From: Craspedostauros australis
Taxonomy: Eukaryota; Bacillariophyta; Bacillariophyceae; Mastogloiales; Achnanthaceae
Reading direction: 5' to 3'
Assembly (NCBI GenBank): GCA_026770025.1
Contig: JAMXDE010000030.1
Coordinates: forward strand, 406,001-470,000
DNA: 64,000 nt
Shown: piece after piece, positions 8,461 to 54,153 of the stretch
Layout: each line of letters opens with the position of its first letter
Position numbering within the stretch: position 1 is the first letter of the stretch
Position numbers and translations under genes: made by a program
The notes under the pieces: model-generated
The model's input: the letters and a program-made list of their open reading frames with translations, nothing else
What the model was told of the DNA's origin: nothing
The model's database searches: none

Positions 8461-10308
8461 GCTGCAGCCTATTCGAAAGCCGTGTCACCACGCACACCAG
8501 AAATGAAAGATGAATTTTGATTATGCTGAACTTACTTGTCAGCAGTACAGTGCAAGATGAGATTGATGATGATATGAGGGATATGATTAGATTTTGATTA
8601 GTGTTAGGATTGCATTTTGGGATGATTGTGGATTGTGAGCAATCGAATTACTTTGAGAATACATGATTTTGATTGTGTGAAGAATAACACATGTGACCGT
8701 GTAATATCGTGTGAAATGAAAGTGTGAAATGAAGATGGAAATGAGAGCAAAGCAACACATTTCCGTGTTGTTTGGAAGTTGGGAGAATCAATGTTCGCGA
8801 TAATCCCATCCTAGTCCAGACCAGAAGCCTAGAAATGAGGATCACGATCAAACGCGCTTCTTGATGATCGTGCCAAATTGGATGCCTTTCTATTTGCATC
8901 AGATGGTATGTTCTTTGGTTCATCATGGAATTGTTCTGCACATTTGATTGCAAAGACATATGAATGTATGTAGAGTGTGCTGTGATGGATGTGGAATGTT
9001 CCATGATGAGTGTAGACATACAATTCATTCTGATGGTGAGATCGTGATACGATTGAATTTGTTGATATGGTTGTTCTCTTTCTGTTGTGGGAGAAGCGGT
9101 AAAAGTATCAATTTTGGAGGTAATGATTTCAGGAGCACACCTGCTGCACATTGATTGATGATGTCACATGTATGTCATGGAGTGGATTGGATGCAGATTG
9201 GACAAATGCTTCGAATCATGTTTATACTGGGTGAAATATAGCTGTGTGCTGATAAGAAATGCAAGGACAGCGACACAGTGCACTGAATCAAAAGCCATGG
9301 ACGCATAGCACGGCATGGCACAGCACCAAGCATCACAGGAGGGCATGGACAAGACAGGAGGACGGTCGCAAGGTGCCTCGTATCGTCCACTTTCTCCCAT
9401 CCGGGAGGGTCAAAGTCATTCTACATTATGTGGAAGCTACAACTACAAGCACCAGAGAAACGAGAGTAGCTTGCACAAAATGGACTTTGTTCCCTGTGAG
9501 CTTGTGAGGGATATTTTGTTTCTCTCATCGTGTTATTGTTGAATGGTTTCACATTTGGGTATGTCACGAATCGAGAGTGCAATTACGTCACGATATCCGT
9601 GTATTACCGCATCTCCCAATGCCTTCGTTTAGTTTCTTTACAATCAACTAACCTGAATCACACTCGGACTCCCTTGTAGTCTGTCCCTCGTATGTACACA
9701 GAACACATGAGAAAATGAGAATCCGATTGTTGAGGAGTGATCATAACGGATTCGGAGCCATGGGCATTGTTGGAGTGTCACCCAAACAAGGAGGACTCAA
9801 TGCAGTGCTCCAAACTGGGCAACTTCTGGGGGAGCGGTAATTCACTATTTTAGCCAGAATCATTTTACTCCATTAATAGCACATTACCTTGGCTCCCAAT
9901 GAGCGAACTCTGCAACAACTTGGCAATCCACAGCAACACCACCTGTACACACACACCTTTTGCTAACCCAACTGTGTATCAACAAGCACAAATGCAACTC
10001 ATTGATGAAATGCAAATACAACTACATCACGAAGAGACTATGTTGTTAATGATACTGAATCACTGTTTAATGATGATTGTTCTTGTACTGCTACATTTGA
10101 CATCGAATCCATTCAACGCTATAATTGGCTTATCTCCAATTTCTGCCTCCTCATCAGCATGCTCTATCTCACCACCTATCCCAGTGTCACCTGGGAATTG
10201 GTGAATGTAGTGTGAGAGGGAGAGCTGATCATCCCCACTGCTGTGTGGGATGTAACAGAGCATTCCTCCTGCACACTAGGCACCAATACACAGCTGGCTG
10301 CTTCTTCT
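8461..10308. other. AT-richer spacer with no supported gene
   Basis: Only short open frames with unconvincing composition are present. The stretch 8530-9160 has many imperfect gatgatatgag/tgtatgt-type words and looks like decayed repeat. On the minus strand, 10060-10263 gives a protein-like peptide (QFPGDTGIGGEIEHADEE) that may be a leftover transposon exon, but nothing joins it to a gene. Confidence 0.4.
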
Positions 10309-13300
10309 GCTGCCATTGGTGGTGGTGCATGGTGATGGTGAATGGTGGTGGTGAATGGTGGTGGTGAATGGTGGTGGTGAACATGGTTGGTGAACATGGA
10401 TGGTGAACATGGTTGGTGAACATGGTTGGTGAACATGGTTGGTGAACATGGTTGGTGAACATGGTTGGTGAACATGGTTGGTGAACATGGTTGGTGAACA
10501 TGGTTGGTGAACATGGTTGGTGAACATGGTTGGTGAACATGGTTGGTGAACATGGTTGGTGAACATGGTTGGTGAACATGGTTGGTGAACATGGTTGGTG
10601 AACATGGTTGGTGAACATGGTTGGTGAACATGGTTGGTGAACATGGTTGGTGAACATGGTTGGTGAACATGGTTGGTGAACATGGTTGGTGAACATGGTT
10701 GGTGAACATGGTTGGTGAACATGGTTGGTGAACATGGTTGGTGAACATGGTTGGTGAACATGGTTGGTGAACATGGTTGGTGAACATGGTTGGTGAACAT
10801 GGTTGGTGAACATGGTTGGTGAACATGGTTGGTGAACATGGTTGGTGAACATGGTTGGTGAACATGGTTGGTGAACATGGTTGGTGAACATGGTTGGTGA
10901 ACATGGTTGGTGAACATGGTTGGTGAACATGGTTGGTGAACATGGTTGGTGAACATGGTTGGTGAACATGGTTGGTGAACATGGTTGGTGAACATGGTTG
11001 GTGAACATGGTTGGTGAACATGGTTGGTGAACATGGTTGGTGAACATGGTTGGTGAACATGGTTGGTGAACATGGTTGGTGAACATGGTTGGTGAACATG
11101 GTTGGTGAACATGGTTGGTGAACATGGTTGGTGAACATGGTTGGTGAACATGGTTGGTGAACATGGTTGGTGAACATGGTTGGTGAACATGGTTGGTGAA
11201 CATGGTTGGTGAACATGGTTGGTGAACATGGTTGGTGAACATGGTTGGTGAACATGGTTGGTGAACATGGTGGGTGAACATGGTTGGTGAACATGGTTGG
11301 TGAACATGGTTGGTGAACATGGTTGGTGAACATGGTTGGTGAACATGGTTGGTGAACATGGTTGGTGAACATGGTTGGTGAACATGGTTGGTGAACATGG
11401 TTGGTGAACATGGTTGGTGAACATGGTTGGTGAACATGGTTGGTGAACATGGTTGGTGAACATGGTTGGTGAACATGGTTGGTGAACATGGTTGGTGAAC
11501 ATGGTTGGTGAACATGGTTGGTGAACATGGTTGGTGAACATGGTTGGTGAACATGGTTGGTGAACATGGTTGGTGAACATGGTGGGTGAACATGGTGGGT
11601 GAACATGGTTGGTGAACATGGTTGGTGAACATGGTTGGTGAACATGGTTGGTGAACATGGTGGGTGAACATGGTTGGTGAACATGGTTGGTGAACATGGT
11701 TGGTGAACATGGTTGGTGAACATGGTTGGTGAACATGGTTGGTGAACATGGTTGGTGAACATGGTTGGTGAACATGGTTGGTGAACATGGTTGGTGAACA
11801 TGGTTGGTGAACATGGTTGGTGAACATGGTTGGTGAACATGGTTGGTGAACATGGTTGGTGAACATGGTTGGTGAACATGGTTGGTGAACATGGTTGGTG
11901 AACATGGTTGGTGAACATGGTTGGTGAACATGGTTGGTGAACATGGTTGGTGAACATGGTTGGTGAACATGGTTGGTGAACATGGTTGGTGAACATGGTT
12001 GGTGAACATGGTTGGTGAACATGGTTGGTGAACATGGTTGGTGAACATGGTGGGTGAACATGGTTGGTGAACATGGTTGGTGAACATGGTTGGTGAACAT
12101 GGTTGGTGAACATGGTTGGTGAACATGGTTGGTGAACATGGTGGGTGAACATGGTGGGTGAACATGGTGGGTGAACATGGTGGGTGAACATGGTGGGTGA
12201 ACATGGTGGGTGAACATGGTGGGTGAACATGGTGGGTGAACATGGTGGGTGAACATGGTTGGTGAACATGGTGGGTGAACATGGTGGGTGAACATGGTGG
12301 GTGAACATGGTGGGTGAACATGGTGGGTGAACATGGTTGGTGAACATGGTTGGTGAACATGGTTGGTGAACATGGTTGGTGAACATGGTGGGTGAACATG
12401 GTGGGTGAACATGGTTGGTGAACATGGTGGGTGAACATGGTGGGTGGGTGAACATGGTGGGTGAACATGGTGGGTGAACATGGTGGGTGAACATGGTGGG
12501 TGAACATGGTTGGTGAACATGGTTGGTGAACATGGTGGGTGAACATGGTGGGTGAACATGGTGGGTGAACATGGTGGGTGAACATGGTGGGTGAACATGG
12601 TGGGTGAACATGGTTGGTGAACATGGTTGGTGAACATGGTTGGTGAACATGGTTGGTGAACATGGTGGGTGAACATGGTTGGTGAACATGGTTGGTGAAC
12701 ATGGTGGGTGAACATGGTGGGTGGGTGAACATGGTGGGTGAACATGGTGGGTGAACATGGTGGGTGAACATGGTGGGTGAACATGGTTGGTGAACATGGT
12801 GGGTGAACATGGTGGGTGGGTGAACATGGTGGGTGGGTGAACATGGTGGGTGGGTGAACATGGTGGGTGGGTGAACATGGTGGGTGGGTGAACATGGTGG
12901 GTGGGTGAACATGGTGGGTGGGTGAACATGGTGGGTGGGTGAACATGGTGGGTGGGTGAACATGGTTGGTGGGTGAACATGGTTGGTGGGTGAACATGGT
13001 TGGTTGGTGAACATGGTTGGTTGGTGAACATGGTTGGTGGGTGAACATGGTTGGTGGGTGAACATGGTTGGTGGGTGAACATGGTTGGTGGGTGAACATG
13101 GTTGGTGGGTGAACATGGTTGGTGGGTGAACATGGTTGGTGGGTGAACATGGTTGGTTGGTGAACATGGTTGGTTGGTGAACATGGTTGGTTGGTGAACA
13201 TGGTTGGTTGGTGAACATGGTTGGTGGGTGAACATGGTTGGTGGGTGAACATGGTTGGTTGGTGAACATGGTTGGTTGGTGAACATGGTTGGTTGGTGAA

Positions 13301-14164
13301 CATGGTTGGTTGGTGAACATGGTTGGTGGGTGAACATGGTTGGTGGGTGAACATGGTTGGTGGGTGAACATGGTGGGTGGGTGAACATGGTGGGTGGGTG
13401 AACATGGTGGGTGGGTGAACATGGTGGGTGGGTGAACATGGTTGGTGGGTGAACATGGTTGGTGGGTGAACATGGTTGGTGGGTGAACATGGTTGGTTGG
13501 TGAACATGGTTGGTGGGTGAACATGGTTGGTGGGTGAACATGGTTGGTGGGTGAACATGGTTGGTGGGTGAACATGGTTGGTTGGTGAACATGGTTGGTG
13601 GGTGAACATGGTTGGTGGGTGAACATGGTTGGTGGGTGAACATGGTTGGTTGGTGAACATGGTTGGTTGGTGAACATGGTTGGTTGGTGAACATGGTTGG
13701 TGGGTGAACATGGTTGGTGGGTGAACATGGTTGGTTGGTGAACATGGTTGGTGGGTGAACATGGTTGGTGGGTGAACATGGTTGGTGGGTGAACATGGTT
13801 GGTGGGTGAACATGGTTGGTTGGTGAACATGGTTGGTTGGTGAACATGGTTGGTTGGTGAACATGGTTGGTTGGTGAACATGGTTGGTTGGTGAACATGG
13901 TTGGTTGGTGAACATGGTTGGTTGGTGAACATGGTTGGTTGGTGAACATGGTTGGTGGGTGAACATGGTTGGTGGGTGAACATGGTTGGTGGGTGAACAT
14001 GGTTGGTGGGTGAACATGGTTGGTGGGTGAACATGGTTGGTGGGTGAACATGGTTGGTGGGTGAACATGGTTGGTGGGTGAACATGGTTGGTGGGTGAAC
14101 ATGGTTGGTGGGTGAACATGGTTGGTGGGTGAACATGGTTGGTGGGTGAACATGGTTGGTGTTG
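10309..14164. repeat. 3.85-kb minisatellite with 13-bp and 17-bp units
   Basis: A tandem array of about 265 units. It grows out of a short (ggtggtgaat)-type stretch at 10309-10380. From there to about 12800 the unit is 13 bases, ggttggtgaacat, first almost pure and then mixed from about 11580 with a ggtgggtgaacat variant. From about 12800 to 14160 the unit is 17 bases with an added ggtg or ggtt (gaacatggttggtgggt). The plus strand is G/T-rich with few C. The plus strand has TGA in every unit, while the minus strand has no stop in any frame, giving three overlapping open frames of 1296-1340 codons. I treat these as by-products of the repeat, not genes. Confidence 0.97.
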
Positions 14165-14419
14165 ATGTGTCTGTGGTGGCAGTGTTTGATTGTGTGAATA
14201 GTCTCTGAGCAGTTAGCGTTAGTACAAGTGTTGGGGTTGGGTTGGAAGTTCGACGTCGTTACAAACCGTGCGAGCTGCGTCACGAATATCGTTTTCATTC
14301 TCGGCGAGCTGCGTCATGATTGGGGAAGCTTTCGCGTCTTGGCAAACTGAGAAAATGTGAGTGAAGTGGAACAAGGGAATGTCGTGACGTCAACAGCAAC
14401 TTATTTATGCATACGGTGT
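14165..14419. other. Unique spacer between the minisatellite and a transposase remnant
   Basis: Non-repetitive sequence bordering the array. A minus-strand frame beginning with ATG at 14298 runs leftward into the array for 1340 codons. Its first 50 or so codons are unique sequence with no recognisable domain. Confidence 0.4.
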
Positions 14420-18191: not shown

Positions 18192-21100
18192 TCATTCGAA
18201 TGTTCTCGATGTGTCAAGGTACGACTTCTCGTGTTCGCGTTGTAAGTCGGCCTTGATGTTCTTGGTGAATCCGTCACTTGTGTTCTGTTCGGATTTTACA
18301 AAAATGATTTCGATGGTTTTGTTGATTACCATGTTCCTCACGTAGTGATGGCGCACGTCGATGTGCCGCGATCGTTGGGATGTTGATGGGTTCTTGGCGA
18401 TGAAGATCGCTCCGATGTTGTCCACACGGACCTTGATCGGTGTCTTCACTGGGACGCCCACACTTTCGAGTAGCTGTACAACGAAGAAGATTTCCTTTGC
18501 CGCTTCGGAAAGGGCAACGTATTCTGCTTCGGATGAGCTGAGTGTGACGGCTTTCTGTGCCTTGGATCGCCAAAGGATTGGTACCTTGCACAGATATAGG
18601 ATGAATCCCCCTACGCTGATTCTTGTGTTCTTGTCTCCTGCATATTCGCTGTCGCAGAAGAGCTCCATGTCCCAGCCGTCGTCGTCTGGACGTGCTGGAT
18701 GGATCTTCAATCCATAGTCCTTTGTATCGATCACATACTTGATGATCCGATACATCTCCTTCATTGCGGCCTTGGTGGGCCCAATCAATACCTTGGAGAG
18801 TTCCCTCACAGGGTTCGCGATATCTGGTCGCGAGTGCTTGATGAGGAAGAGTAGCATACCGACGCCTCGGCGGTATTCGGCATGTTCTTCCGGTCCGACC
18901 TTCTGTAGTCCGTTATCTTCGGATGGTCGTACGATGATTTGGCCCGGGGTTCCCAGTGTCCCATAGCGTTGCATCTTCTCAACCTTGGTTCCGAACTCTT
19001 CGATGAGGTGTCGGATGAGATGTGGCTGACGCAATGTCGCTCTAGTCTTGTCATGGTTCAGTTCGATGTTACAGCTGAGGTAGTCTCCAAGTCCGCGCTC
19101 GATTGTCACCTTGAATTTGCTGCCTTGGATGTCCTTCAGGAATGTTTCCAGTGCCTTGGAGTCTCCACAACAGAAACAATCGTCCACGTAGATGGCCACG
19201 ATCATGCTTCCTTCGTTCGTCTTCCTGTAGAACAGGCACGGGTCTGCTGCGCTCTGTTCGAAGTTGATATTCTTGAAGGTCGATACCAACATCTTGAACC
19301 ATTGCCTGGCGCTCTGTACAAGTCCGTAGATTGGCTTGTGTAGGGTCAGGGCTTCGTCTGGTTGATGATCCATCCCGTTGGGACAGTTCATGTAGATCTC
19401 CTCGTCAAGGTCTCCATGTAGGAATGCCGTTACGACATCGACGAGTGCGCAGTCCATCTTCTTGATCAGCATGATCACCATCATGACCCGATAGGTCACG
19501 TCATGGATGACGGGTGAGTAATGCTCTTGGAAGTCCACTCCTGCGATTTGTGAATAGCCACATGCAACGAGCTGCGCTCGATGTGTGCCGTCACGTTTCA
19601 GCTTGAAGACCCATTTGCACTTGCAGCATCTGCGGCTGCGTGGGATGGCGTCTCGTTTGATCTTGCTATATACCTTGCGTGTATCCATGGAGTCGAACTC
19701 CTTCTTGATGGCTGCTCGATATCCCTTCCGGTGGATAGGATCTGGGTGATTGAAGGCTCCGTCGAACGTTGTAGGTTCGATGTGCTTCTCTGGTTCCTTG
19801 TTCTCGTCCTGCATCGACAGTCCGATGTCGATCGCTGGTGATTCGGTAATGATTGCATTCATTCCATATAATCCAGTTGTACTATGGTGAGTGATCTCGA
19901 CCTCTTCATCTTCGTTTTCGATTTCTTCGTCATCTGTAGTTTCGTTGTTGGAATCGTCGATCATCTCGTCGCTGAGTTCGTCACTCGCCTCATTGGATGA
20001 TGGATTGCTCTCATAGCCTTCTTCCTTTCGACCTCGTTCGTTGAAGTCTGCGAGCTCGCGCAGAGCTCTGGAAATACTCTTCCCTGTAGTTGGCTTGGGA
20101 TTAACTTCTCCCTTCCTGCCTCGTGCTTCGTGACGTCGGATCCTCTCCTTTCTAGCTATGTCACGCTTGTTTGGCTTGCTCGGTGGAGGTTTGGATGGTG
20201 TGCCATGTGTAGACCTCGCTGGTGTGTTCGGAGGAGTGACGCCTGTGTCATCGTCGGTTTCGTCGCCGGATGGTATGATCTCGTCATTCTCGTGATTGGA
20301 TTCGCTCCGATCTTCCTCGTCGTTATGGACTGATGGAGTTGCTACTCCGTCGTCCTCATTATCCTCATCATCGCTGTCTGATAGGATATAGTACATGTTA
20401 CTGTCAGCAAAGGATACTCTCCTTGCTTTCGATGCTTGACGCGTTGCCGTCCTTGGCGTTGCTCCCTTCCGTCCGATGGTTGTGAAGCCGTCTGCGTCCG
20501 TTGTTCCTGTCTCGTTGGATATGTTCGGTGCTGGTGCCCAGCCACGGAACTGTCCGTATGATTGGTTGAGCCACTTGATGTCCCGTGAACAGATGAGTGA
20601 CTTGGTCGATGGTCTGTACATGTTGTAGACCCCTGATGCATGTTGGTGTGCATATCCGATGAACACCATCTCTTCTCCTCTGTTCTTGAGCTTGGCAGTA
20701 ATCCCGCCGTAGGTAGTCTTCATAACACCCACCTCTCCAAACGTGCGGAGTGCATCCGCATATGGTGGATCGTTGTCGAAGAATTGTCGATGTGGTGACT
20801 CCTTCTGGTTCTTCGCTACAGTGATGTTGGCGATGGCGGTGGCAGTGCTAGCGGCTGCTGCCCACAGGCCATGCCTATACTCTTCGTCGAGCTGTGCTCC
20901 GTTGAGCATGGAGCGGATCTTGGTGTAGAGGTACGCGAACTTGCGTTCCACTCTGCCGTTCTGTTGCGGCGTGTTCGATGCCGTGTATTCGAATTTCACG
21001 TTGAGTCCTGCATCGATGAGAACATCCTCCGTGGATTTGTTCTCTCCGCTGTTGTCACCTCGGAAGATGATCTGTTGGTCACCAGTCTGTGACTTGATCG

Positions 21101-24100
21101 TCTGGACGAATCGTTTGATGTATCCTGGTTGATCACTTTTGTTCTTGAGAAAGAAACTCCAGCAGTGATCCGTGCAGTCGTCAACGATCAGGGTCCAGTA
21201 GCGTTTATCTCCGAAGCTTATGTGTTTAGTGTAACTAATATCAATGAAGAGTCGTTCGCCGCGGCGAGTCGCTCTTGGAATGGTTGTCTTTGGGATGTTC
21301 TTCACTCTTGCGTTCGCAACCGCGCAGTCGCGACACACCGGCATCTCGCCGATGATTGTCCATCCGTACTGAGCGGCTGTCCGCTTCATGGTCTCGAGCG
21401 GCGCGTGCCCGAGCATTCGGTGCAGGTTCACCACGCTGATCTCCTTGGATGGATTCTTGACGATGGCTGTGCAAGCCTTGTCGTCGTCTGTTGGCATGAT
21501 GGGGTGCATCTGCACTCCCGTGATGAATCCGTTGGATGTGGGGAAGACTCGATCGAACACGATCTTCATTCCGGATCCGTTGATGATGTCCATCAGAATG
21601 CCGTTGCTACCAAGTTGGTAACCGTTGTACAGAGCCTTGTTCGTGGAGAAAAGGTTCACCGCCATTTTCGGTGTGTACTTCACGTCATCGAGCCGGATGA
21701 CGTGGCCAGTGTTGTCTCGTTGCTTGACCTTCAAGCGAATAGATCCCATCTTAGGAGAGTCCAGCTTTGTGCTGTCTCCCACTTGGACGAATGACTTGAT
21801 GTGCCGCACGTTGAAGAGAGCGGCGTCTGAATTGACGATGTGACACGAAGCTCCACTGTCGGCGAGCCAGGTGTCCTTGTTGACCTTGTCTTTGTATCTG
21901 GTACTGAGCTCGTGGAGCTGCTCCACGGCTGCCGCAGCTATCTCGTCGTTGAAGCTGCCGTCGTCGTCGTCTTCGTGGACTCCATCTTCGTTGTATGGAT
22001 GATGATGGTCTCCGTCATCCATGTCGTCGGGTAGTTGCGCATAGTCCGATGGAATGGTGCTGTTTCGATGTGATCCTGTGGCTGGATCGTACGGGTGGAC
22101 GCGTGGTCGTTCGCGTAAGAGTACGCGCATACATCCTCCAAGGATGTAATGAAGATCCGTCTCTGGGATCGTCTCTGTCTCGGCTGCTTCCAGTATGCGA
22201 TTGATCACAACCGAATTGGCGAGAATCTCTTCGATCGATCTGAAGTTCTCGGATAGGATCGATCCCATCATGTTCACCCATATCGGTCTGAGCACTCCTT
22301 GTACATGCCCTGGGAAGAGGTTTGTTCCTGCTTCCATTACGGCATCGAAGATAAGTTGCTTCTGGATTACCAATGCTGTTGCTGTTGCATATGGGACGGT
22401 GTCATGACGGTGGAGGTAGTTGGACCTGTTGGGATCTTCGATTGGTGGGAAGTCGATATTCCCAGGGTATACGACACGCTCGTTTGGATTGAAGCTGTCG
22501 TCTGGATGATTGCCGTCCACCGATTCGTCGCTGTCATCCTCGTCGAAGATGCCCGATCTGTTGTTCCCCGCCGCTGGAGGAGGAGGCGCCGCGCCGCGGT
22601 CCGCCTCGTCGTCTTCATCTGCGCCGTCCTCGTCGGCGTCGTCGTCGTCATCACTCATGGCCTCTTCGATGTCACTATCGTTGGCCTCGTTGTCCATCTC
22701 AGCTTCGTCGCCGTATGAACCGATCAGGTCGTGCGCGTTGAAGCAGCATTCGTAGCTCACTTCGCGTCTTGGATCCACCTCGTGGATAATTGGCTCCTCG
22801 TTGAGCCACTCCGGGATGATCTCATCACCCTGCACTTCGTCGTCACTCCCGACGTACTCGAAGTTATCGAAGAAGGAGTCTTCGATGTAGTCGTCGGACA
22901 CCAACATGCAGAGCGGCATGTCCTTTGCCGAGAGTACCATCTCGTGTCCGCTCTTGTCGTGTCCTTGCGTTGCTGTGTTGGCCTGCTCGTCGGCCTTCTT
23001 CTCGTTGAACTTCTTCTTTCGGCACTCCGCCTCGCGGTGTCCGAAGATGCCGCAGTAGTTGCACTTGCCCTTGAAGCCGCTTCCCTTGTTGCGCTTTCCG
23101 TTCATCTTGTTGTTGTTGTTGTTGTTGTTTTTCTTGTTGTTCGATTTCTTGCGTTCTGGGCAATCGGCGGATCTATGGCCATACACACCACAGTTGTGGC
23201 AAGTACCCTTGAAGTTACCGGTGCTTGTGAAGCCGGTGTCGTTGCTCTTCGTGTTGCTGTCTTGGAAGTCGTCGACGTATGCCTTGCCTCCTCTGTGCGT
23301 GGCATATGCAGTGCGGAGTACTCCTCTGATCGTGTTGATGGTAACCAGCTCCGGATTGAACGTGAGTTGGTGTTGGAGGTTCACGACGTGGGTTTTGTAT
23401 TCCACGCTCACCGTGCTGAGAATCTGCATGATCATTTCTTCGTCCGTGATCTCATACTTGACATCGTGGAGACGCGATCGTAGACTTTCGAGTTGTGTGA
23501 TGTAGATGTCGGGGTCCGTGTCTCTTTTCATCTTTTCGTTGTTGAATTGACGCTTGAGTTTGATCTTCGTTACCGCGTCGGATGGACGGAACTTCTCCGC
23601 GAGAACGTTCCACGCTCCGTGTGCGTCTCCTTCGGGGTAGTCGTCGGAGATGCATTGGTTGATGTACTGGATGGCCTGCTTACCTTTTCCTTTCTCTGCA
23701 TCCATCATGAGGATCAGATCGCTGAAGCAGTCGCATCCCAGTTCGTAGATTTCCTCCATCGCTTCCTTGTCTTCATCGGTGGCTGCTGCGATCTCGCTCA
23801 CTGTTGGAACCTTGGTCTTCCCCAACATTACGTCTCTCGTCTTCTGTGCACGAGCGTATGCCTTCGCTTGGGACTCCCATGCGCTGTAGTCTTCCTGTTC
23901 ACCGCTGAACATTGGCGCCTTGATGCGTCGCTTGTTCATGTTGGCTGATGTCGCCATGTTGGTTCGTTGTTTCGTCGTTGGTGCGCTCGCGCCCTTGATT
24001 TCCGTCGGTTTCTGTGTTGCCGATTCTTCGATTTTCGCTTGTTGTTTCGCGAGGATTGATTTGCTCACAAATTCTCCTCCTGGTGGTGTCTCACTTTTCC

Positions 24101-24362
24101 CACCCTGTTTGGCTGTGCGAATGCTCTTCGTCACACCAGTCTCCTCTTGTTTGACCGTCTTGAGAATCCTCTTCTCCTCGCGGTATAGTCTTGCAGACCG
24201 TTCTTCTTCGGTCTCGTCGATTGCGCTTGCGTATGCGCCTGATAGGACAGTAGCCGCAGCTGCTTCCTTCTCTTGTCGTGGTGGAGTCTCACTCGCACCT
24301 TCTTCTCTCTTGATAGTCGGATTGGACAGAGGGATGTCTTTCAATTCCTCTTCCTCGCTCAT
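18192..24362 (-). CDS. Gag-pol polyprotein of the intact copia element
   Basis: A single 2056-residue frame from an ATG at 24362. It has an acidic/basic N-terminal leader and a gag domain from about residue 148 (MFSGEQEDYSAWE). Two CCHC zinc knuckles follow, near residues 388-401 and 433-446. After a long acidic linker come the protease with Asp-Ser-Gly-Ala near 834, an integrase core with FIDISYTKH near 1039, RGDN near 1099 and NGRVERKF near 1135, the reverse transcriptase with AFLHGDLDEEIYM and the YVDD catalytic motif near 1722, and RNase H with LFCDSEYAGD near 1899. The order protease-integrase-RT-RNase H is that of Ty1/copia. All catalytic motifs are present and no stop or frameshift is visible. 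Gag and pol share one frame, so their ratio cannot depend on frameshifting here. Confidence 0.97.
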   Translation of the reverse strand: MSEEEELKDIPLSNPTIKREEGASETPPRQEKEAAAATVLSGAYASAIDETEEERSARLYREEKRILKTVKQEETGVTKSIRTAKQGGKSETPPGGEFVSKSILAKQQAKIEESATQKPTEIKGASAPTTKQRTNMATSANMNKRRIKAPMFSGEQEDYSAWESQAKAYARAQKTRDVMLGKTKVPTVSEIAAATDEDKEAMEEIYELGCDCFSDLILMMDAEKGKGKQAIQYINQCISDDYPEGDAHGAWNVLAEKFRPSDAVTKIKLKRQFNNEKMKRDTDPDIYITQLESLRSRLHDVKYEITDEEMIMQILSTVSVEYKTHVVNLQHQLTFNPELVTINTIRGVLRTAYATHRGGKAYVDDFQDSNTKSNDTGFTSTGNFKGTCHNCGVYGHRSADCPERKKSNNKKNNNNNNNKMNGKRNKGSGFKGKCNYCGIFGHREAECRKKKFNEKKADEQANTATQGHDKSGHEMVLSAKDMPLCMLVSDDYIEDSFFDNFEYVGSDDEVQGDEIIPEWLNEEPIIHEVDPRREVSYECCFNAHDLIGSYGDEAEMDNEANDSDIEEAMSDDDDDADEDGADEDDEADRGAAPPPPAAGNNRSGIFDEDDSDESVDGNHPDDSFNPNERVVYPGNIDFPPIEDPNRSNYLHRHDTVPYATATALVIQKQLIFDAVMEAGTNLFPGHVQGVLRPIWVNMMGSILSENFRSIEEILANSVVINRILEAAETETIPETDLHYILGGCMRVLLRERPRVHPYDPATGSHRNSTIPSDYAQLPDDMDDGDHHHPYNEDGVHEDDDDGSFNDEIAAAAVEQLHELSTRYKDKVNKDTWLADSGASCHIVNSDAALFNVRHIKSFVQVGDSTKLDSPKMGSIRLKVKQRDNTGHVIRLDDVKYTPKMAVNLFSTNKALYNGYQLGSNGILMDIINGSGMKIVFDRVFPTSNGFITGVQMHPIMPTDDDKACTAIVKNPSKEISVVNLHRMLGHAPLETMKRTAAQYGWTIIGEMPVCRDCAVANARVKNIPKTTIPRATRRGERLFIDISYTKHISFGDKRYWTLIVDDCTDHCWSFFLKNKSDQPGYIKRFVQTIKSQTGDQQIIFRGDNSGENKSTEDVLIDAGLNVKFEYTASNTPQQNGRVERKFAYLYTKIRSMLNGAQLDEEYRHGLWAAAASTATAIANITVAKNQKESPHRQFFDNDPPYADALRTFGEVGVMKTTYGGITAKLKNRGEEMVFIGYAHQHASGVYNMYRPSTKSLICSRDIKWLNQSYGQFRGWAPAPNISNETGTTDADGFTTIGRKGATPRTATRQASKARRVSFADSNMYYILSDSDDEDNEDDGVATPSVHNDEEDRSESNHENDEIIPSGDETDDDTGVTPPNTPARSTHGTPSKPPPSKPNKRDIARKERIRRHEARGRKGEVNPKPTTGKSISRALRELADFNERGRKEEGYESNPSSNEASDELSDEMIDDSNNETTDDEEIENEDEEVEITHHSTTGLYGMNAIITESPAIDIGLSMQDENKEPEKHIEPTTFDGAFNHPDPIHRKGYRAAIKKEFDSMDTRKVYSKIKRDAIPRSRRCCKCKWVFKLKRDGTHRAQLVACGYSQIAGVDFQEHYSPVIHDVTYRVMMVIMLIKKMDCALVDVVTAFLHGDLDEEIYMNCPNGMDHQPDEALTLHKPIYGLVQSARQWFKMLVSTFKNINFEQSAADPCLFYRKTNEGSMIVAIYVDDCFCCGDSKALETFLKDIQGSKFKVTIERGLGDYLSCNIELNHDKTRATLRQPHLIRHLIEEFGTKVEKMQRYGTLGTPGQIIVRPSEDNGLQKVGPEEHAEYRRGVGMLLFLIKHSRPDIANPVRELSKVLIGPTKAAMKEMYRIIKYVIDTKDYGLKIHPARPDDDGWDMELFCDSEYAGDKNTRISVGGFILYLCKVPILWRSKAQKAVTLSSSEAEYVALSEAAKEIFFVVQLLESVGVPVKTPIKVRVDNIGAIFIAKNPSTSQRSRHIDVRHHYVRNMVINKTIEIIFVKSEQNTSDGFTKNIKADLQREHEKSYLDTSRTFE

Positions 24363-45414: not shown

Positions 45415-48400
45415 CTAGGCTGCAGTGCAGTCGTCCCCATCATCACCACCAGTTCCGCCGTTTCCCCAAATAGAGCCCTTTGTCCACTTGTTGGGATTAC
45501 TTCCCAATGAACCGCCGACACCAACGCCAACCGGAGGCGTGCCACCACCACTGGCAGGGGCACCGCCTGGACCCCCAAAGTTAGGGAAGGTTCCCTTGGG
45601 ATTCTTGATCCCAGTGTTGGGAGCAGGCACCGTGCCACCGTTCGTTCCGAAGATTACACCCTTGACCTGACGGCGTCGGCGACGTCCACCACTGACCTCG
45701 CAGCTCGGCTTTGTCGGCTGTGACGTTGGTTGCGACGTTGGTTGCGACGTTGGCTGCGATGTCGGCGCGGCTGTTGGCTGCGACGTTGGCTGTGATGTTG
45801 GTTGCGATGTTGGCTGCGATGTTGGCACGGCTGTTGGCTGCGACGTAGGCTGTGCTGGAACTGGCTCTGCGCTTGGCATCGTGCTCGGTTCGGCAGACAG
45901 TGTCGGGGAGAAGCTCGGGATCTCGGATGGCTGGTTCGAGATTGACGGGTTTGATGACGGCATGTCAGAAGGTAGAAAAGACGACGATGGTCCGCTGCTA
46001 GGCTCCGTGGACGGTTCGATGGATGCTGTCGGATTCTCTGATGGCTGCCAAGATGGCATTTCCGATGGCGAGTTGCTCGGGTTTCCGGACGGTGTCGTCG
46101 ACGGTGAGTCAGATGGTTGCAACGATTCGGTGAGTTCAATACTCGGCAGTGCGGAGGGCTCGACGCTTGGCGAAGCGGATGGACGATCCGAGACGGTGGG
46201 TCCCATCGACGGCACGGCGGAGGGGGTCATCGTGGGCACCTTGGTCTCCCCCGGTGCGCAGCCATCGCCATCAACAGTCGAGCCCATCGTTGTCGTTGGG
46301 CATTTGTCCTTGTCATTCATCACGCCATCGCTATCATCATCAATCTGGGACTGGGAGCACCCATCTTCGTTGACGTCTTCCCCAAGCGGGGTCGACGGGC
46401 ACAAATCCTTGCAGTCCTCCAAGCCGTCGCTGTCTTCGTCGGGCATGGCGCAGTCGGCTCGCTTGCTGGTGCTGGTCGTGAAAAAGTCCTCTTCCACGAA
46501 GAGATCATCGCAACGGTCGAAGCTATCTCGGTTTGGGAGGACGTGGCTCAATTCGCACGAGTCTGTAACTCCCATCCACTGCGCAACTGGCTGCCAGTGC
46601 GCCTCCAGAGGCATCTCGGGGATCAGTCGGCCACGTCCAATGTTCAGCCGACCGTTGCTGGTGATGTCGTCGGGGTACAAACCGTGGATCTTCTTCTCCT
46701 TGAGCCCGCCGCCCATCATGAAACCGACACCACCCCAGCCGTGGTCTGTGCCTTCGCCGGAGTTGAGAGTGAGGGTTCGAGCGAAGTCAGATCCGGTAAC
46801 AATCACAACATCTTCCCAGATGCCTTGATTCTCCATCTCTTCGATGAAGCTCTTCAGAGCATTGTTCACATCTGTCAAAAGAGCCTCGAGGTTGTTGCGT
46901 GAGCTCACTGCGTGAAGGTCGTATCCTCCTTGTCGAACAAAAAACGCTTCGCGTTCCACCTTGCGCTGGTCCTTCGACTTCATCCACCTGGCCAGAGACT
47001 CGAAGTTCTTGTCAAGACGGGTCGAACCGAACGTGGCCGTTGGGTTGAACTCGTCCGAGTAGTAGATGTTGACCATCTCCTTGTTGGATGCCATGGATTG
47101 AATGAGCTTGGTCGCCCAGTGATCGCCGAACAAACCGCTCTGCACGTCGTTGGCTCCGTTGATGTCGGTCATGTGGTCGTTCATGTCTGTCACCTCTGGA
47201 TTCGAGTTAAAATTAGATGGAAAATGGTGTGGCAACTCGGTCACGGGGTTGTTGTCTTCCGGTGAACCGGAGAGCAGGACAGAACTGGTGCCGACGGATC
47301 CGGAGGATGTTTTGAAGCCGTTTCTCTTGAGGACGTCAATAAGACGACCGCCGACGCCCGTTTCTCCTGCCTCGTTTTCGATGTCCACCCGGTAGAACTC
47401 TCGTTGCTGGCTGTTGTGGGAGAAGAGTGGCGACTTGGTTTCCTGCCAGTTGTCCTTGGTGACTTTCTTCTGCAGCACACCATGGTTGGCGAAGAACATG
47501 GCCTGGTTGCTGTTGTACCGTTCCTGCAGGATAGGGATGGCGCTGTTGATGCCGAATGTGGTGCATGTTTGATCGGGATTGTTGGCATCGATCTCCAACA
47601 TCTCGCTCTCGGACAGGGCATGCACGCTGCGGACACTCTTGTACTCCTCGTACATATCCTTGTTGCCACATCCTGACTTGGGCACGAGCAGGTTGTGCGA
47701 ATCCATGCCGCCGTGAAACATGAGATACACGACAGCTCGGTATGGCTTCGTGGGCCCATCGTTGCCGTCAGGCAACGTTCGGGTGGTGTTGGCTGGACTG
47801 ATGATGCTCGTAGTTTGGAATTCGGCAGAAGCTACAATAAGCTGCTGTGCGTAGCGAAGTGCCTTTGGCCTATCGTCGATCACGTAAGGTTCGATGTATG
47901 CTGCGATCTTCGCCTTGTTGGACGCATCGAGGCGGTTTGCTGTCATCAAAAGAGCGAGGTCGTCGACAATCTCTGCCGAGGCGAGACTTGTCGTGTTGTA
48001 TTGCAAGTACCCAAAGGATTTGCTGACGTTGCCGAAGTACTCCGATCTCCAGCTGACGCACCAATCCTTGAGGCCCCGAGGACGATAGTCACCGAGACCA
48101 CCGCGGCATGAGATGATTCCTGCAAGCATTGTGGTGGAGGTAGAGTTGGGAGGTTTGGCATTGACAACATTGTTAAGCGATATTGTGCGGAGTGAAAGAA
48201 AGAGACTCAAACCGAAGAGAGTTGATTTGGTATGACGGGAAGGTGCGAAGTGAGATGTTGGTGTGAGTGTGAGAGCGAGAGTAAGAGGGGTGGTCGTGCA
48301 CTGTGGTACCTCGCAACGACAACAGGAATGCCACAGATTGGTGATGGTGGAGACAATCGCATGTTGCACAACCACCGGCAAGTGCGATCGGAATCGCAAC

Positions 48401-51400
48401 CTGTGCAGAGTTCCATAATCGCCACTGTCGCTGTTGCCTGCAACAGAGCAGTATCAACAATATCAACAGTGCCAACAGCACCGAGAATGTCCAAAGTATT
48501 AGCATTGATAGCACAGGCCAACCCTCGCAGGTTATCCACTCACCGTACTTCGATGTCGCGAATAGACTTTCCAACAGATCGGTCGTCTTTGTCGCCGTGA
48601 GGACAAGAGACTCGGGCGATTTCAAGAATGCGGTTGCTAATGGCCCCGATGGCACGAATTCTGGCAAGAAGAAGGAGAACACGCTGGGCGTCTCGTACAC
48701 GCCCTGGCCAATGTCATCCTGAAGGGTCGGGAGCAAGGGCCAGATCAAGGGGCTGTCGATCTTGTAGTCCAAATTCCTCAGGAAGGCCACAATCTTCAGC
48801 AATGGTTCCCGGAGCTGTCCATGAGCGACATCCGAATTGATGGAGATCGATCGAGCTTCTTGGTCGAGCAGAATGGCTGCGACCATGGCGCCGAGGTCAC
48901 CGTAGTTGCCAGAGCCGATACCGTTGTAGTCGCCGCTCTTGTAAGCAGTCACGACAGTCTTCACAAATCGAGGCGATGGGCTCGAGAAACCGAATCGCTG
49001 CAGGAGACGCACGGCAAGGAACGGCGCATGGCTGGGGTGATAGAAGTAGTGGTCCAGCACGGCGTCGATCTCGTGATACGCGTCTCTGGGCTCCGGATCG
49101 TGCACACTCATGAAGTTGACGGGGTTGCGGAATGAGTACGTGCTGGAATCGACTTTGACTGTGGAGACGAGGTTCTTGTAGTATTTCATGATGCCATACT
49201 CGTTGGGCAGCTCGAAGATCGTGTCCACGTCGAGATTGTCGCAGTTTGAACTGTTGTTGGCATTGTTGGTGTAGATCGTCACGCCAGAGACCGCGCCGCT
49301 GCAATCACCTCGATTGGTGTAGGCATCGGCATCGTGATACGAGGGTTCAAATGCTCCAATGAACAACACCTCGTACAGCTTGGTCTGATTCCCAACGTCC
49401 GTCGCTGTCGTGAACATCGGTTGCTCGACGACGCTGACGTCGCAGATGCATGAATCGTATTGGGAAATACAATTGCCGCCGGTTCCAGAACATCCAGCCT
49501 TGATATTTGGGAATTCACCGCCGGCCCATGGCACCTTGAAGAAGTTGATCGTCTCTTCAGACACTCTGGATGGGATCTCGTTGGCTCCGGAGAAGTCCGG
49601 ATCTACTCGGATTAGCATGTACGAGTATGGCAGCGAATATGCGTTGTTTGCGTGACGGTGGCACACGTAGTGGATGCAGTGCACATTACACATAGACGAT
49701 TGAAGACAAGTAGCATTCGACGTAAGAATACGAGTTTCGGAGGAGAAGCTTTGGAAAGCCAAGCGATGGGGACCAACGCACGAGACAGAAGCAATCATCA
49801 TGCACCAATGTGCTTGTCAGGATTCAGGAACGTACCGGGATTGTGCACAAGGGCGACCTCTCCATCAGCAGATACCTTCGCCTTGAGGGAGCAAGACCCT
49901 GTCGTCCACTGAAAGTAGGTTGCCCAGCGGTCCGGACCTGCCCACGGATCACGAACGCATTGGCCACCATACTGTGGCAGCATTCGCATGTTGTCGCACT
50001 GTTCAAAAACCACACCATCCCTTCCCTCGACTGTCAGCGCTGCACACCGTGACTGAGCCGTGGCGAAGCTGACCCGCTCGGCCTGGTAACGGCAATCGCG
50101 TCGCGCGTAGATGTTATTGGACCGGTCGCTGAACTGGATGGCATCCCATCCTTGAGCACAGCAACTCTCCGCAGCCACGGCCAGCCTTGGATTGGCGCAG
50201 AGGTTGTTGCGATTGACATGTCGATGGTTGGTCCAATCCGTGATGCGCTTGGCGTTGTTGTAGTATGTCTGCTCAACGCAGGGCTGTCGCACGTATTCGT
50301 AGTAGATGGGACTGCCAGATGTGCCAGGTCCTCCTCGCACCTGCACCGTCCTCACCGTGTCGACATCGTACTCTGTGAAGCTGTTGTTTGCGCCGTAGAG
50401 GGGAAGGAGGTTGCCTGGGAGAGTGATCTTACCAGGGTATGTGCAGCCGCTGCCGCCAACGTCGGCACAGAGTGCATCGTACAGAGGCGACGACACGTCG
50501 AGGGAAAGACGCACGACATCTGGTTGGTTGGTCCAGATCGAGTAGTAGGTGTGCAACTCCGGATACTCCTTCGATCCCAGCAGACGGTAGGTGGCACCCT
50601 TTCGTAGATGATGATGCTTCGGCATGTCCACGCACAAGGGAAAGCCATCTCCGATGTAGCCGTTGGAAAGGCTTGACTTGGGGAAGTTGTCGCGCCATCG
50701 ACTATTGGTTGATGATGTGGCGGGGGTTGGTTTGGCAAGACCGTTTGAAAATGTCAAGAGTGAGCGCGCATTGAGTCAGCGAGTGAATGAGTGAGTGAAG
50801 TGGGTCAGCGAGAGAGTCAGGATGCACATATAGTCGCATCAGCACCAATTGTGGGACTTACTTTCGGATCCTCATCGGATCCACTCTCGTCCAGCGGTAT
50901 TCGAAGTTTCCCCGGTTTGGTTGCTTTTCAAATCCAGTCCATGCTCTGGCGAACGACAAGATGTCGCTGTTGTCATAGGTTGGGACGGTCTCGCCTTCAG
51001 CATCCAGCTTTGCTGTCCCGTCTTCATTCAACTGTATCAGCCCGATGCTGAAGAGCTGCATGATCTCTCTCGCGAAGTTCTCATCCGGGAAAGCTGGTCT
51101 GCTGTAGTCGATGGAGTACTGAACGCTTTTGGAGTACGCCGATGAAAGCATTTCGGCCATGCGATCGTGGAAGGCCACCTGCTTGAGGACATCGCGATAG
51201 TTTCCGAACGCGTTGCGAACGAAGATATCGTAGAAGTCGACCGTGGTCTCCGTGAAGGTCACGTCGTTGAGGCCCGTTGGCGAGATGACTAGGACCTGGC
51301 TCAGCGCAAAGGCGACACGTTGGCGCAGCTGATCGAGCGCATTCAATGCGATGTTGGACCACATCGTCGCCTTCTGCCGTTGCAGCATCCCACTGGGGGT

Positions 51401-54153
51401 CGTGTCATATCGCTTCTCGATGTTGCCCTCGAGCTCGTAGTAGTTGGCGTCGAATCCTGCTCCCAGCTTGGGGTCGTTGGCCACCTCGCCTCGGGAGCCG
51501 CAGATGAGGACGCCCTTGCCGTCGGGATTAGTCTGCACCGAACCGTACTCATCCTCCAGTTCCTGTGCCTTGAGGTTGTCGGGGAGATCTGCGTAGGAGA
51601 TGTACTCGTCGTACCGACCCAGCAGCGGGCGCAGGTCAGGTTCGCTCACGATTTTTTGGAAGAACCGTTCGTTGCCGTTCCAATGGTGGTGGCTTGGGAA
51701 GTACAGGATCGATTTGTCATTGTCAGCAAAGTTGTAGATCTTCTGCGGGCCGCCGCCATGGATCAAGGCAAAGTTGGTGAAGTCGTACACATTGAGGTGC
51801 ATGGGATGAACGTGGCGCCAGCAATTTCCGTCAAAGTCCTTGATCTTGCCCAAGGCGAAGAGGTCGCGGTCGGCCGATTCGCATTCGAAGGTGGCAGGTA
51901 GTTGGACATCTTTGAGGTTGGAGTTGGTGTTGTAGTCGCCGATGCTTTCGAAACCTGGCTGTAGCAATGTGGCAAAGACTTGCTCCGTGTCTTCGTGGAC
52001 GGTTCTGTAATCAGCCGCGTCACATTCAGAGGTGTCGACTCGCATCCATCTGGATGTACGGTAGGCATGAAGTTGGCATGGCTTGGCCAGGTAGGGCACC
52101 TGGTCGTCGCCGTCGAAGTAGGTCTCGTTGGTGATTGGGAGGTTGTCGATGGCGTAGACCTGTGTGCGTAGGTGGGTTTGTAGCAGAGCATGGTGGAGTA
52201 CGCAGAATGACATTGCAACGAGTAGGTGCCATGCACAATGAAGGGAAGGGGCAAAAGAAGGCAGAAGATGAGATGGGATGAGGCATTGATAGTATCATGA
52301 TCAACAGGCACGAGCGTATGTAGAAAGTACGTCCAGATGATTCGGGTTTGATGATCGTCGTCATGGTCGCAACCATTGCAACAGGCACTGCAACAGGCAC
52401 TGCAACAGGCACTGCAACAGGCACTGCAACAGGCACTGCAACAGGCACTGCAACAGGCACTGCAACAGGCACTGCAACAGGCACTGCAACAGGCACACAT
52501 GTATACATGCAATCGCGCGAGAGATTGACTTACATATCTGCCGGTCGCTTCATGCATGGCAAGGAGGAATTCGTGAGAAAGCTTGACGGAGAAGGTTGGT
52601 GGAGCGTCGGGACTGCATGCGGTGGTTTCCTCGCTCAGGATGCAATGGTCTTCGTTGAGGAACGATCGTTGTGCGTTCGAGCACAGGACGGTGTTGCCAG
52701 TCTCGATGGCCACGCTTCCACCACCGTCGGGGATTGGATTTTCGAGGGTGTTCTCCTGCAGCTGCAGGCGAGGGTCGTAGAGGAGGTACTCGTCGGTGAC
52801 GCCGTCCGATGCGTTGACGCGGCCGAAGATGGGCTCAAGGCTGTACGACTGCTGCCGCGAAGTGGCATACGCCTTCGGAAGTGCAGCGCAAGCGGCTTCG
52901 GTCGGCGATCCAGAGCCATCGATGGATCCCGTGAGGATGTACTCGTCGTTCGATCCGTAGGCCGTGGTCCAGTAGACGCTCTCGTAGTCGTTGTCGTCGA
53001 TGGGCTTGAGCTGCGCACCGTTCGCAGCAGCAGCGCCAGTGTGGGGGTTTGGAAGATCGATGACGTGCGCAGTCAAGGTTGGATCGGCGGTGATATCCAC
53101 GGCGGGAACTCCACCGACCAACTCCAGGCATTCGCTCGAATCGTCGTTGGCGAGCTTCATCCAGACAGCGCCGCCGATGGATTCCTGGTAGAAGGTCTCC
53201 TCCTCCTGGCAGATCTCGTAGTCCGTGTTGAGCACAGCGGGAACGACGCTGTCGCCAGTGGTATCGAACGGTGTCTGGAAGGACGGAAGGTCGTCGACGA
53301 TGGTGCGGGCGTGCCCGTTGACGAGGAGGACGAAGGGGGCCGTGGTCTCGGCCTGCCCTGCCAGCGACCGGATCGTCATCGTCTTGCCGCTGTCCTTGAC
53401 GCTGAATGCAAAGCGTCTCCACCGCGAGTTCTCGTCGCACGGTGGGGGACCCGGACGGACCGGGTAGAAGGCCGCTTCGAGGCGGGGGTTGAGGCGCTTG
53501 CGGAAGTACTCGCGGTGCGAGGTGAGGCCAGAGACGGACGGGTCCATCTGATCCTCCACCCATTGCTTGATGGTGGACTCCAGCGGCTGGGTGAGGTCCC
53601 AGTCATCCAGCGCCTGGCGTGTGGTGCCGTACGTGCTCTGCTCCAGGAAGCGCGCCACCGCGGCCTTCTTGTCCACGTCGGTGGTGAGGTCGAGGTGCGG
53701 CGCGAAGGAGGTGAGCACGAAGATGTCGTTGGACTCGTCATCGGGGGCTGGGAGAGGCACGTTCATAGTGCACGCAGAGCCGCCGCAAGTGATCTGGAAC
53801 GAAGCGCCGTCTCCAGCGTAGAAGCCGGGAGACAGCTCCCAGTCGCTGCCATCGTAGCTGCGAGCCACGGGAACGACCGTGGCGGAGTTGGTGAGCTTGG
53901 TGAGCGTGCAGAGGCCGTTCGGCCCGTGCTTGGGCAGCGAGATGAAGGAGTCGGTGATCGGGGGTGAGGATTCGCCAGCGTTGGGGCAGGAGTAGGCCTG
54001 CTGCGCATGCACGGACGGGAGGGCTGCGAAGATGCTCGCGGCGACCAATGCCAGCACGATGCAGCGCGAGCTGGACATCGCTCGTGCCATTGGCGATTGT
54101 TGGCTGGCCGCGTTGATGGTGCTGCGCGTGGCATGGGGCGTGCTGGTTGCCAT
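45415..54153 (-). CDS. Secreted DUF1800-DUF1501 fusion protein, 5 exons
   Basis: Deduced 2515 residues. Exons are 54153-52534, 52159-50862, 50701-49836, about 49602-48544 and 48119-45415. Donors are GTAAGT, GTAAGT, GTACGT and GTGAGT, all acceptors are AG, and phases match at every join. The acceptor of exon 4 could also be at 49606. A signal peptide follows an N-terminal extension (hydrophobic core IVLALVAASIFAAL, cleavage after SVHA near residue 50). Met22 or Met26 could also be the start. DUF1800 begins near 150 (AVARFLEQSTYG), includes NFAREIMQLFSIG near 898, and ends near 1510 after a large insert. DUF1501 spans about 1740-2145 (LMFHGGMDSHNLLVP to VTGSDFARTL and DHGWGGVGFMMGG). Two thrombospondin type-3-like calcium loops (near 2175-2235), Ser/Pro repeats, Thr-Ser-Gln-Pro repeats and a Gly/Pro-rich tail follow. 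It is probably extracellular or wall-associated. The enzymatic role is unknown. Confidence 0.87.
52378..52496. repeat. 12-bp tandem repeat inside intron 1 of the DUF1800-DUF1501 gene
   Basis: About ten near-perfect copies of gcaacaggcact. On the gene's strand the unit is four codons long (Cys-Cys-Ser-Ala when read in the frame of exon 1) and contains no stop. Confidence 0.95.

Follow-up and report, generated by a model that had tools for sequence, protein, structure and literature searches.

A diatom gene family joins the bacterial neighbour proteins DUF1800 and DUF1501 in a single predicted chain with two large inserts

A 64,000-nucleotide stretch of the genome of the diatom Craspedostauros australis (contig JAMXDE010000030.1, positions 406,001 to 470,000; hereafter the window) contains a predicted gene that joins DUF1800 and DUF1501, two domains encoded by adjoining genes in bacteria, in a single protein chain. 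The gene occupies 45415–54153 on the minus strand and has five exons encoding 2515 amino acids (aa); it is supported by a splice model that stays in frame, by Pfam matches, and by nine further matches in the same genome, and we regard the fusion as virtually certain to be real. Its component families are known, and what is new, as far as we have seen, is their combination in one chain that also carries two large inserts and a cytochrome-b5-like module; the accessible portions of the open PMC literature on either family describe no fused DUF1800–DUF1501 protein. A preliminary description of the window, made from sequence alone, had already placed both domains in one chain, and this was borne out, with the domains in the same order as in bacteria. 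Our independently rebuilt model, running from 54153 to 45415, agreed with it on the four in-frame joins and on the residue count, all five exons closing in frame with one terminal stop. In the domain search that it had proposed, DUF1800 (PF08811; 162.8 bits against a cut-off of 26.1), DUF1501 (PF07394; 83.2 bits against 27), and a PT repeat all scored above the Pfam cut-offs. It did not mention that DUF1800 carries two inserts and a b5-like module, nor did it comment on how DUF1501 folds or on the other members of the gene family.

In terms of gene layout, exon 1 (52534–54153) encodes the putative signal peptide, the N-terminal block of DUF1800, and the start of insert 1, and is followed by exon 2 (50862–52159), exon 3 (49836–50701), which holds the bulk of insert 2, and exon 4 (48544–49602). 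Exon 5 (45415–48119) encodes the end of DUF1800, the complete DUF1501 domain, and the tail. All four introns have GT..AG borders: intron 1 (52160–52533; 374 bp) holds a 12-bp tandem repeat at 52378–52485, introns 2 (50702–50861) and 3 (49603–49835) are 160 and 233 bp long, and intron 4 (48120–48543; 424 bp) lies within the DUF1800 coding sequence.

The preliminary description had pointed to intron 4 as a place where two separate genes might part, and this is contradicted by the position of the intron itself, which interrupts DUF1800 such that about 100 residues of the domain, as judged by the profile, continue into exon 5. When the whole genome assembly (74.8 Mb in 90 contigs) was searched with the 2515-residue model (tblastn), nine other places matched, the weakest being a partial copy with a best E-value of 5e-52, so the fusion gene is not a chance product; in total, there are 10 gene places spread over six contigs. 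One copy (L021) has a stop-free frame of 1871 codons that contains DUF1800 and DUF1501 together and aligns to residues 454–2167 of the window protein, across all four joins. Three others (L023, L024, and L025), which are very similar to one another, carry the C-terminal half of DUF1800 and DUF1501 in a single open frame, with no interruption at the site of intron 4. The border is therefore unspliced in four of the nine other places, representing two gene lineages, and because intron 4 also lies inside DUF1800, the fusion holds irrespective of splicing. That two neighbouring genes were merged by a faulty splice model is thus hardly credible, and we reject this reading. Among the remaining copies, L022 is broken by an in-frame stop and a shift of frame, L026 is partial, and L027–L029 have introns. 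A 981-aa open reading frame (ORF) in L029 was considered as another unspliced fusion and was left out of the count, as it contains an apparent in-frame intron in the DUF1800–DUF1501 region. Four very similar copies (L023–L026) lie on one contig (C36), with about 15.3 kb between L023 and L024, and look like the result of recent duplication, and the copy with the in-frame stop (contig C11, 1477501–1487500) is probably a dying gene.

Recent bacterial insertion or contamination could also be invoked, given that all the relatives found outside this genome were bacterial, IMG/VR, or phage sequences, in searches of prokaryotic and viral collections. This is extremely improbable in view of the four GT..AG introns, the 10 gene places on six contigs, the long common algal branch (0.89 changes per column in the DUF1501 tree), and the eukaryotic genes in the window (histone deacetylase, TLDc, and Copia elements).

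To place the fusion among its relatives, 84,980 prokaryote species genomes were scanned, yielding at least 584 confirmed stretches, of which the best 80 were kept. In all 80, an ORF for DUF1800 adjoins that for DUF1501, upstream and on the same strand in 78 and downstream in two (L103 and L112), and none of these 80 best loci has a single ORF holding both domains. They belong mostly to Bacteroidota, Verrucomicrobiota, and Pseudomonadota; the usual order was also found in four plasmid regions, and a DUF1800 neighbour was present in 15 of 18 IMG/VR loci, the other three having only a short upstream stretch. The algal chain thus shares with the bacterial PF08811/PF07394 pairs both families, their order, and the same invariant residues, but the bacterial pairs are two proteins, with a loose twin-arginine pattern before or overlapping the start of DUF1501 in 81 of 82 ORFs, whereas the algal version is one chain with a secretory signal in front and two far larger inserts in DUF1800. 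The twin-arginine-like export motif is usual in the bacterial relatives and lies outside the Pfam definition of DUF1501; in the window protein, the motif is gone and a linker occupies its place. The preliminary description had stated that the two genes are often neighbours in bacteria, notably in Planctomycetes. The first part of this statement holds for the 80 best loci, but the second fails: in a sample of 25 Planctomycetota genomes (20 with DUF1501), 29 of 30 loci gave a DUF1501 ORF, DUF1800 was found within 1.5 kb in only three of the 30, and none was fused, although more distant partners would have been missed with these 1.5-kb flanks and with loci that were mostly the best scorers.

Several further features of the bacterial and viral loci were observed. 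Viral-class contigs carry DUF1800–DUF1501 pairs at L114–L124 and L127–L130, and in some of these both proteins contain long inserts; L117 and L127 share one 322-kb IMG/VR contig, and L125, L126, and L131 have DUF1501 without DUF1800 in the stretch covered. Among 69 ORFs scanned beside bacterial pairs (from 141 picked by script), F5/8 type C domains occurred in 11, Por secretion tails in eight, PA14 in seven, and GLEYA in six, and these recurrent large extracellular neighbours are a possible third component. Both families are also found in the laboratory strain of Caulobacter vibrioides, which served as a control. DUF1800 also occurs in another alga, Emiliania huxleyi, in which two of 10 DUF1800 genes were up-regulated in a study of calcium and biomineralisation; the available part of that report differs from our case in mentioning neither DUF1501 nor a fusion (PMC7563939).

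The DUF1800 domain of the window protein is nearly complete. Against a 543-position profile of 39 DUF1800 rows, prokaryotic and from IMG/VR, it covers positions 25–541 in three collinear blocks and retains 16 of the 17 invariant columns. Block 1 (residues 160–220; 53494–53676) matches profile positions 25–80 (i-Evalue 1.2e-5), block 2 (residues 798–989; 50653–51388, with intron 2 inside) matches positions 88–279 (4.4e-62), and block 3 (residues 1427–1717; 47812–49108, spanning intron 4) matches positions 276–541 (4.7e-47). Between blocks 1 and 2 lies insert 1, of up to 577 aa (residues 221–797; 51389–53493, with intron 1 inside), and between blocks 2 and 3 lies the Cys-rich insert 2, of about 437 aa (residues 990–1426; 49109–50652, with intron 3 inside), the exon 3 part of which is conserved among seven copies. 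No credible sequence relative of DUF1800 was found in the PDB (one weak match, E = 0.58), and none was found there for the exon 1 alignment or for exon 3 (insert 2). The insert 2 profile had no match in the viral_contigs collection, and the exon 2 profile matched one locus there, via DUF1800 only.

The insert sites are not exclusive to the alga: smaller inserts occupy them in L042 and L127–L130. Among the best 80 GTDB loci, the largest insert was about 102 aa at site 1 (in L042) and about 25 residues at site 2 (in L046), and site 2 holds about 376 residues in one IMG/VR locus (L127) and about 130 in three others (L128–L130). No Pfam domains were found within the site 2 inserts of L127, L128, and L129. 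Since these sites are also occupied elsewhere, the presence of an insert does not necessarily add a function; as far as we have seen, the algal inserts are distinct in size and content, not in position. The Opitutia DUF1800 protein that is the closest row to the algal clade (L042, 7576–9855) has an insert of 103 residues where the algal proteins have insert 1. It has no clear kinship with algal insert 1 (the best blastp match, E = 0.11, was to another part of the protein), and its presence at site 1 in the nearest row is suggestive. Another bacterial DUF1800 protein (L088, 4950–9836) has an N-terminal extension with glucuronyl C5-epimerase beta-sandwich, Kre9-like, and PKD domains, which hints at glycan chemistry.

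Inside insert 1, residues 652–705 (51665–51826) form a module resembling cytochrome b5. In all eight copies of the module, a His-x-Gly-Gly motif and a second His are invariant, with a spacing of 24 in seven copies and 26 in L021. The axial histidines of b5 are about 24 residues apart. A profile of the eight copies matched 58 PDB sequences at E ≤ 1 (best E = 9.2e-5), of which 57 are b5 or b5-domain proteins, the exception being a putative kinase. Some observations argue against this assignment. In the four scanned proteins that cover the site, the Pfam Cyt-b5 score (PF00173) was below the cut-off of 23.7 throughout (14.5 bits in the window model, 19.4 in L021, 15.4 in L023, and 21.2 in L028), and the HPGG of classical b5 is replaced by HGGG in the window copy. 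Compared with PF00173 domains, including those of algal chitin synthases, the module shares the His-x-Gly-Gly motif and, in seven of eight copies, the second His at 24, but it differs in its score, in the HGGG of the window copy, and in being seated inside DUF1800. The Pfam position, the invariant His pair, and the b5 profile matches nonetheless indicate, if more weakly than in a clear domain match, that the module is b5-like; the chances that it binds haem appear evenly balanced.

The DUF1501 domain (residues 1742–2097; 46672–47739) begins about 25 residues after the end of DUF1800, and its invariant Asp and His residues are kept in all seven algal rows when aligned with four bacterial ones. 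Its structure model (predicted local distance difference test, 80.9; predicted template-modelling score, 0.84) gave fold-search alignments to the alkaline phosphatase superfamily spanning model residues 2–415, and it presents the conserved Asp and His residues together with a Ser-His at the start of a helix. The TDHG motif is akin to the Asp-His pair of enzymes in this superfamily, and NPP enzymes carry a DxxxH motif. Against the assignment stand the low Foldseek TM-scores (0.23–0.40 in the rows shown, with root-mean-square deviations of 9–22 Å), an hhalign value of just 3.0% for DUF1501 with phosphodiesterases, and the motif DxH in place of the NPP DxxxH. No credible sequence relative of DUF1501 was found in the PDB, the sole match being a designed repeat protein. 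Thus, DUF1501 resembles the alkaline phosphatase superfamily (NPP/ENPP, sulfatases, LtaS, and phosphoethanolamine transferases) in its predicted fold but differs in its identity of about 10% and its DxH spacing. On the strength of the model, DUF1501 very probably has an alkaline phosphatase/sulfatase fold, and it is probably catalytic.

The N-terminus (residues 1–50; 54004–54153) reads by eye as a putative secretory signal, with a hydrophobic core at about residues 31–46 and a cut after VHA; Met1, Met22, and Met26 are candidate starts, and a similarly hydrophobic N-terminus is seen in the alignment of two further copies, L028 and L029. At the other end, two thrombospondin type-3-like loops (residues 2175–2189 and 2208–2222; 46396–46440 and 46297–46341) and a third DGDGC piece can be read in the sequence at 46246–46440, followed by Ser/Pro and then Pro/Thr repeats at 45700–46242. 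The preliminary description had recognised both elements. The Pro/Thr repeats were confirmed by the Pfam PT match (about 45712–45816; 48.1 bits against a cut-off of 26.2), whereas the loops, although visible, scored only 17.0 bits with TSP_3 (PF02412), short of the cut-off of 25. In NCBIfam, the tail had three weak matches, none of which reached its cut-off.

The tail allows a different reading, in which the protein would be a non-catalytic wall or adhesion protein, its domains serving as structural modules and its function residing in the tail and loops. The Ser/Pro and Pro/Thr tail with its calcium-type loops, the two very large inserts that break DUF1800, and the large extracellular neighbours of the bacterial pairs (F5/8 type C, PA14, and GLEYA) fit this reading; the invariant Asp and His residues in the seven algal DUF1501 rows and the retention of nearly all the invariant DUF1800 columns speak against it. 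So does the distribution of the tail, which was seen only on the window copy: no calcium-type loops or Pro-Ser/Thr runs were found in the frames of seven other copies or in the 1.7–3.0 kb downstream of them. Five of these (L021, L023, L025, L028, and L029) end shortly past DUF1501, and L027 has a hydrophobic stretch at its end. As far as these copies show, the wall-type tail is thus not a trait of the fusion family, and we consider the adhesion reading unlikely.

Phylogenetic trees were built for each domain from seven algal rows and 86 (DUF1501) or 78 (DUF1800) others, omitting the broken L022, the partial L026, and L024, a near-twin of L023. In both trees, the algal rows formed one side of a branch with a Shimodaira–Hasegawa-like approximate likelihood ratio support of 100, and the window copy grouped with L027, L028, and L029 at 99. 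For DUF1800, the nearest neighbour of the algal clade was L042 (Opitutia, Verrucomicrobiota; 96), followed by L062 (Opitutales; 96), although these were quick trees without bootstrap, with bacterial rows picked by similarity, and a branch as long as the algal one may be put in the wrong place. No such grouping of the alga with Opitutia emerged from the free DUF1501 tree, which weighs against a shared origin there, but when the algal rows were held beside L042 and L062, the log-likelihood was 13.7 higher than that of the quick tree and the approximately unbiased (AU) test gave p = 0.778. From the DUF1800 tree and the DUF1501 AU test together, a single donor pair near Opitutia is allowed by both halves. 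The phylogenies that the preliminary description had proposed thus place the algal rows in one clade for both domains, near Opitutia for DUF1800, and its suggestion that a gene pair was transferred and then fused fits both trees, although the direction and date of the transfer are only inferred. An Opitutia-like source of the pair is a tentative suggestion, somewhat short of an even chance. A planctomycete origin was not supported, considering the three paired loci among the 30 sampled from Planctomycetota and the placement in the DUF1800 tree.

We also considered whether the protein is an accessory of chitin synthesis, in which the pair would work with a surface chitin synthase and the b5-like module would pair with the b5 domains of the synthase. 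Bacterial DUF1800–DUF1501–chitin synthase operons have been described, for which the authors, in the part of the report available, propose a functional link with the synthase (PMC5122149), and diatom chitin synthases are reported, again in the accessible part of the source, to have two b5 domains on the predicted extracellular side (PMC10134812). The algal genome has 10 PF03142 matches, read as nine chitin synthase genes (contigs C16, C20, C44, C56, and C17; L136–L143), and eight of its 25 Cyt-b5 matches lie approximately 0.65–1.0 kb upstream of a chitin synthase on the same strand, an arrangement to be expected from the diatom synthases. In addition, a Vibrio maritimus plasmid (L030; source, Skeletonema costatum) carries DUF1800 and DUF1501 genes whose ends overlap, close to a gene for a GH19 chitinase. 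On the other hand, no chitin synthase was found near the pair in any of the 102 bacterial and viral loci (L030–L131; flanks of up to 10 kb, tblastn at E ≤ 1e-3 with one algal synthase query), so a link by neighbourhood was rejected; the fetched relatives of the algal pair thus share the two families with the operons described but lack an adjoining synthase, and the algal pair itself is fused. The chitin synthases and fusion genes sit on separate contigs, and the eight synthase-linked b5 modules lack the second His by eye. In hhalign, the fusion module gave 97.3% with the genome's other b5 matches (a generic profile from 12 of 17) and 92.0% with the eight synthase modules, with scores of 57.5 and 37.8, respectively. 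Derivation of the module from a chitin synthase is therefore not favoured, although the comparison is weak because the two profiles differ in diversity. Taken together, a role as a chitin-synthesis accessory appears decidedly unlikely.

Elsewhere in the window, coding regions of Copia-type long terminal repeat retrotransposons lie on the minus strand at 3–2468 and 18195–24362. At 10179–14313, also on the minus strand, all three frames are open for approximately 1330–1360 codons with a strong GC skew of 0.56–0.74; this long, stop-free stretch is probably repetitive. In the genome as a whole, 61 light-harvesting matches were found, and fucoxanthin proteins are among the PDB relatives of one of them.

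On balance, we lean slightly towards the view that the gene encodes a secreted form of the bacterial pair, merged into one chain, that would act at the cell surface as a metal-dependent enzyme on phospho- or sulfo-esters. The secretory signal at the start of the chain would export the whole DUF1800–DUF1501 unit, in which DUF1501, as a metal-dependent hydrolase or transferase, would cleave or transfer phosphate or sulfate esters on a polymer or lipid of the cell surface, and DUF1800 would be its obligate partner, forming or gating the substrate site; a direct partnership of the two domains is quite probable. The b5-like module may bind haem or serve as a contact module, and the loops and Pro-rich tail of the window copy may anchor the protein to the wall. 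A single fusion event would have preceded the growth of the family in the alga, and the pair itself may have been acquired earlier from an Opitutia-like member of the Verrucomicrobiota. A more specific and very improbable version is a haem-gated secreted phospho- or sulfo-transferase, in which DUF1501 would be catalytic, DUF1800 its obligate clamp, and the b5-like module a relay of electrons or a redox sensor; the module would thereby control the modification of a growing wall polymer, whether chitin or a different glycan, on the outer side of the algal membrane, and the system would derive from an Opitutia-like gene pair that was acquired and then fused. If this were true, the DUF1800–DUF1501 complex would supply the missing chemistry of a widespread bacterial pair.

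DUF1800 and DUF1501, both common among bacteria, have names that denote unknown function, and the fusion gene ties the two families together. A natural eukaryotic fusion in the bacterial gene order is strong evidence that both proteins act as one unit, and it supplies a single chain for expression, folding, and assay, with the predicted alkaline phosphatase fold and the conserved set of Asp and His residues as a guide to the first assays. Judging from the b5-like insert and the expansion of the family, the alga may have adopted this system for chemistry at its surface.

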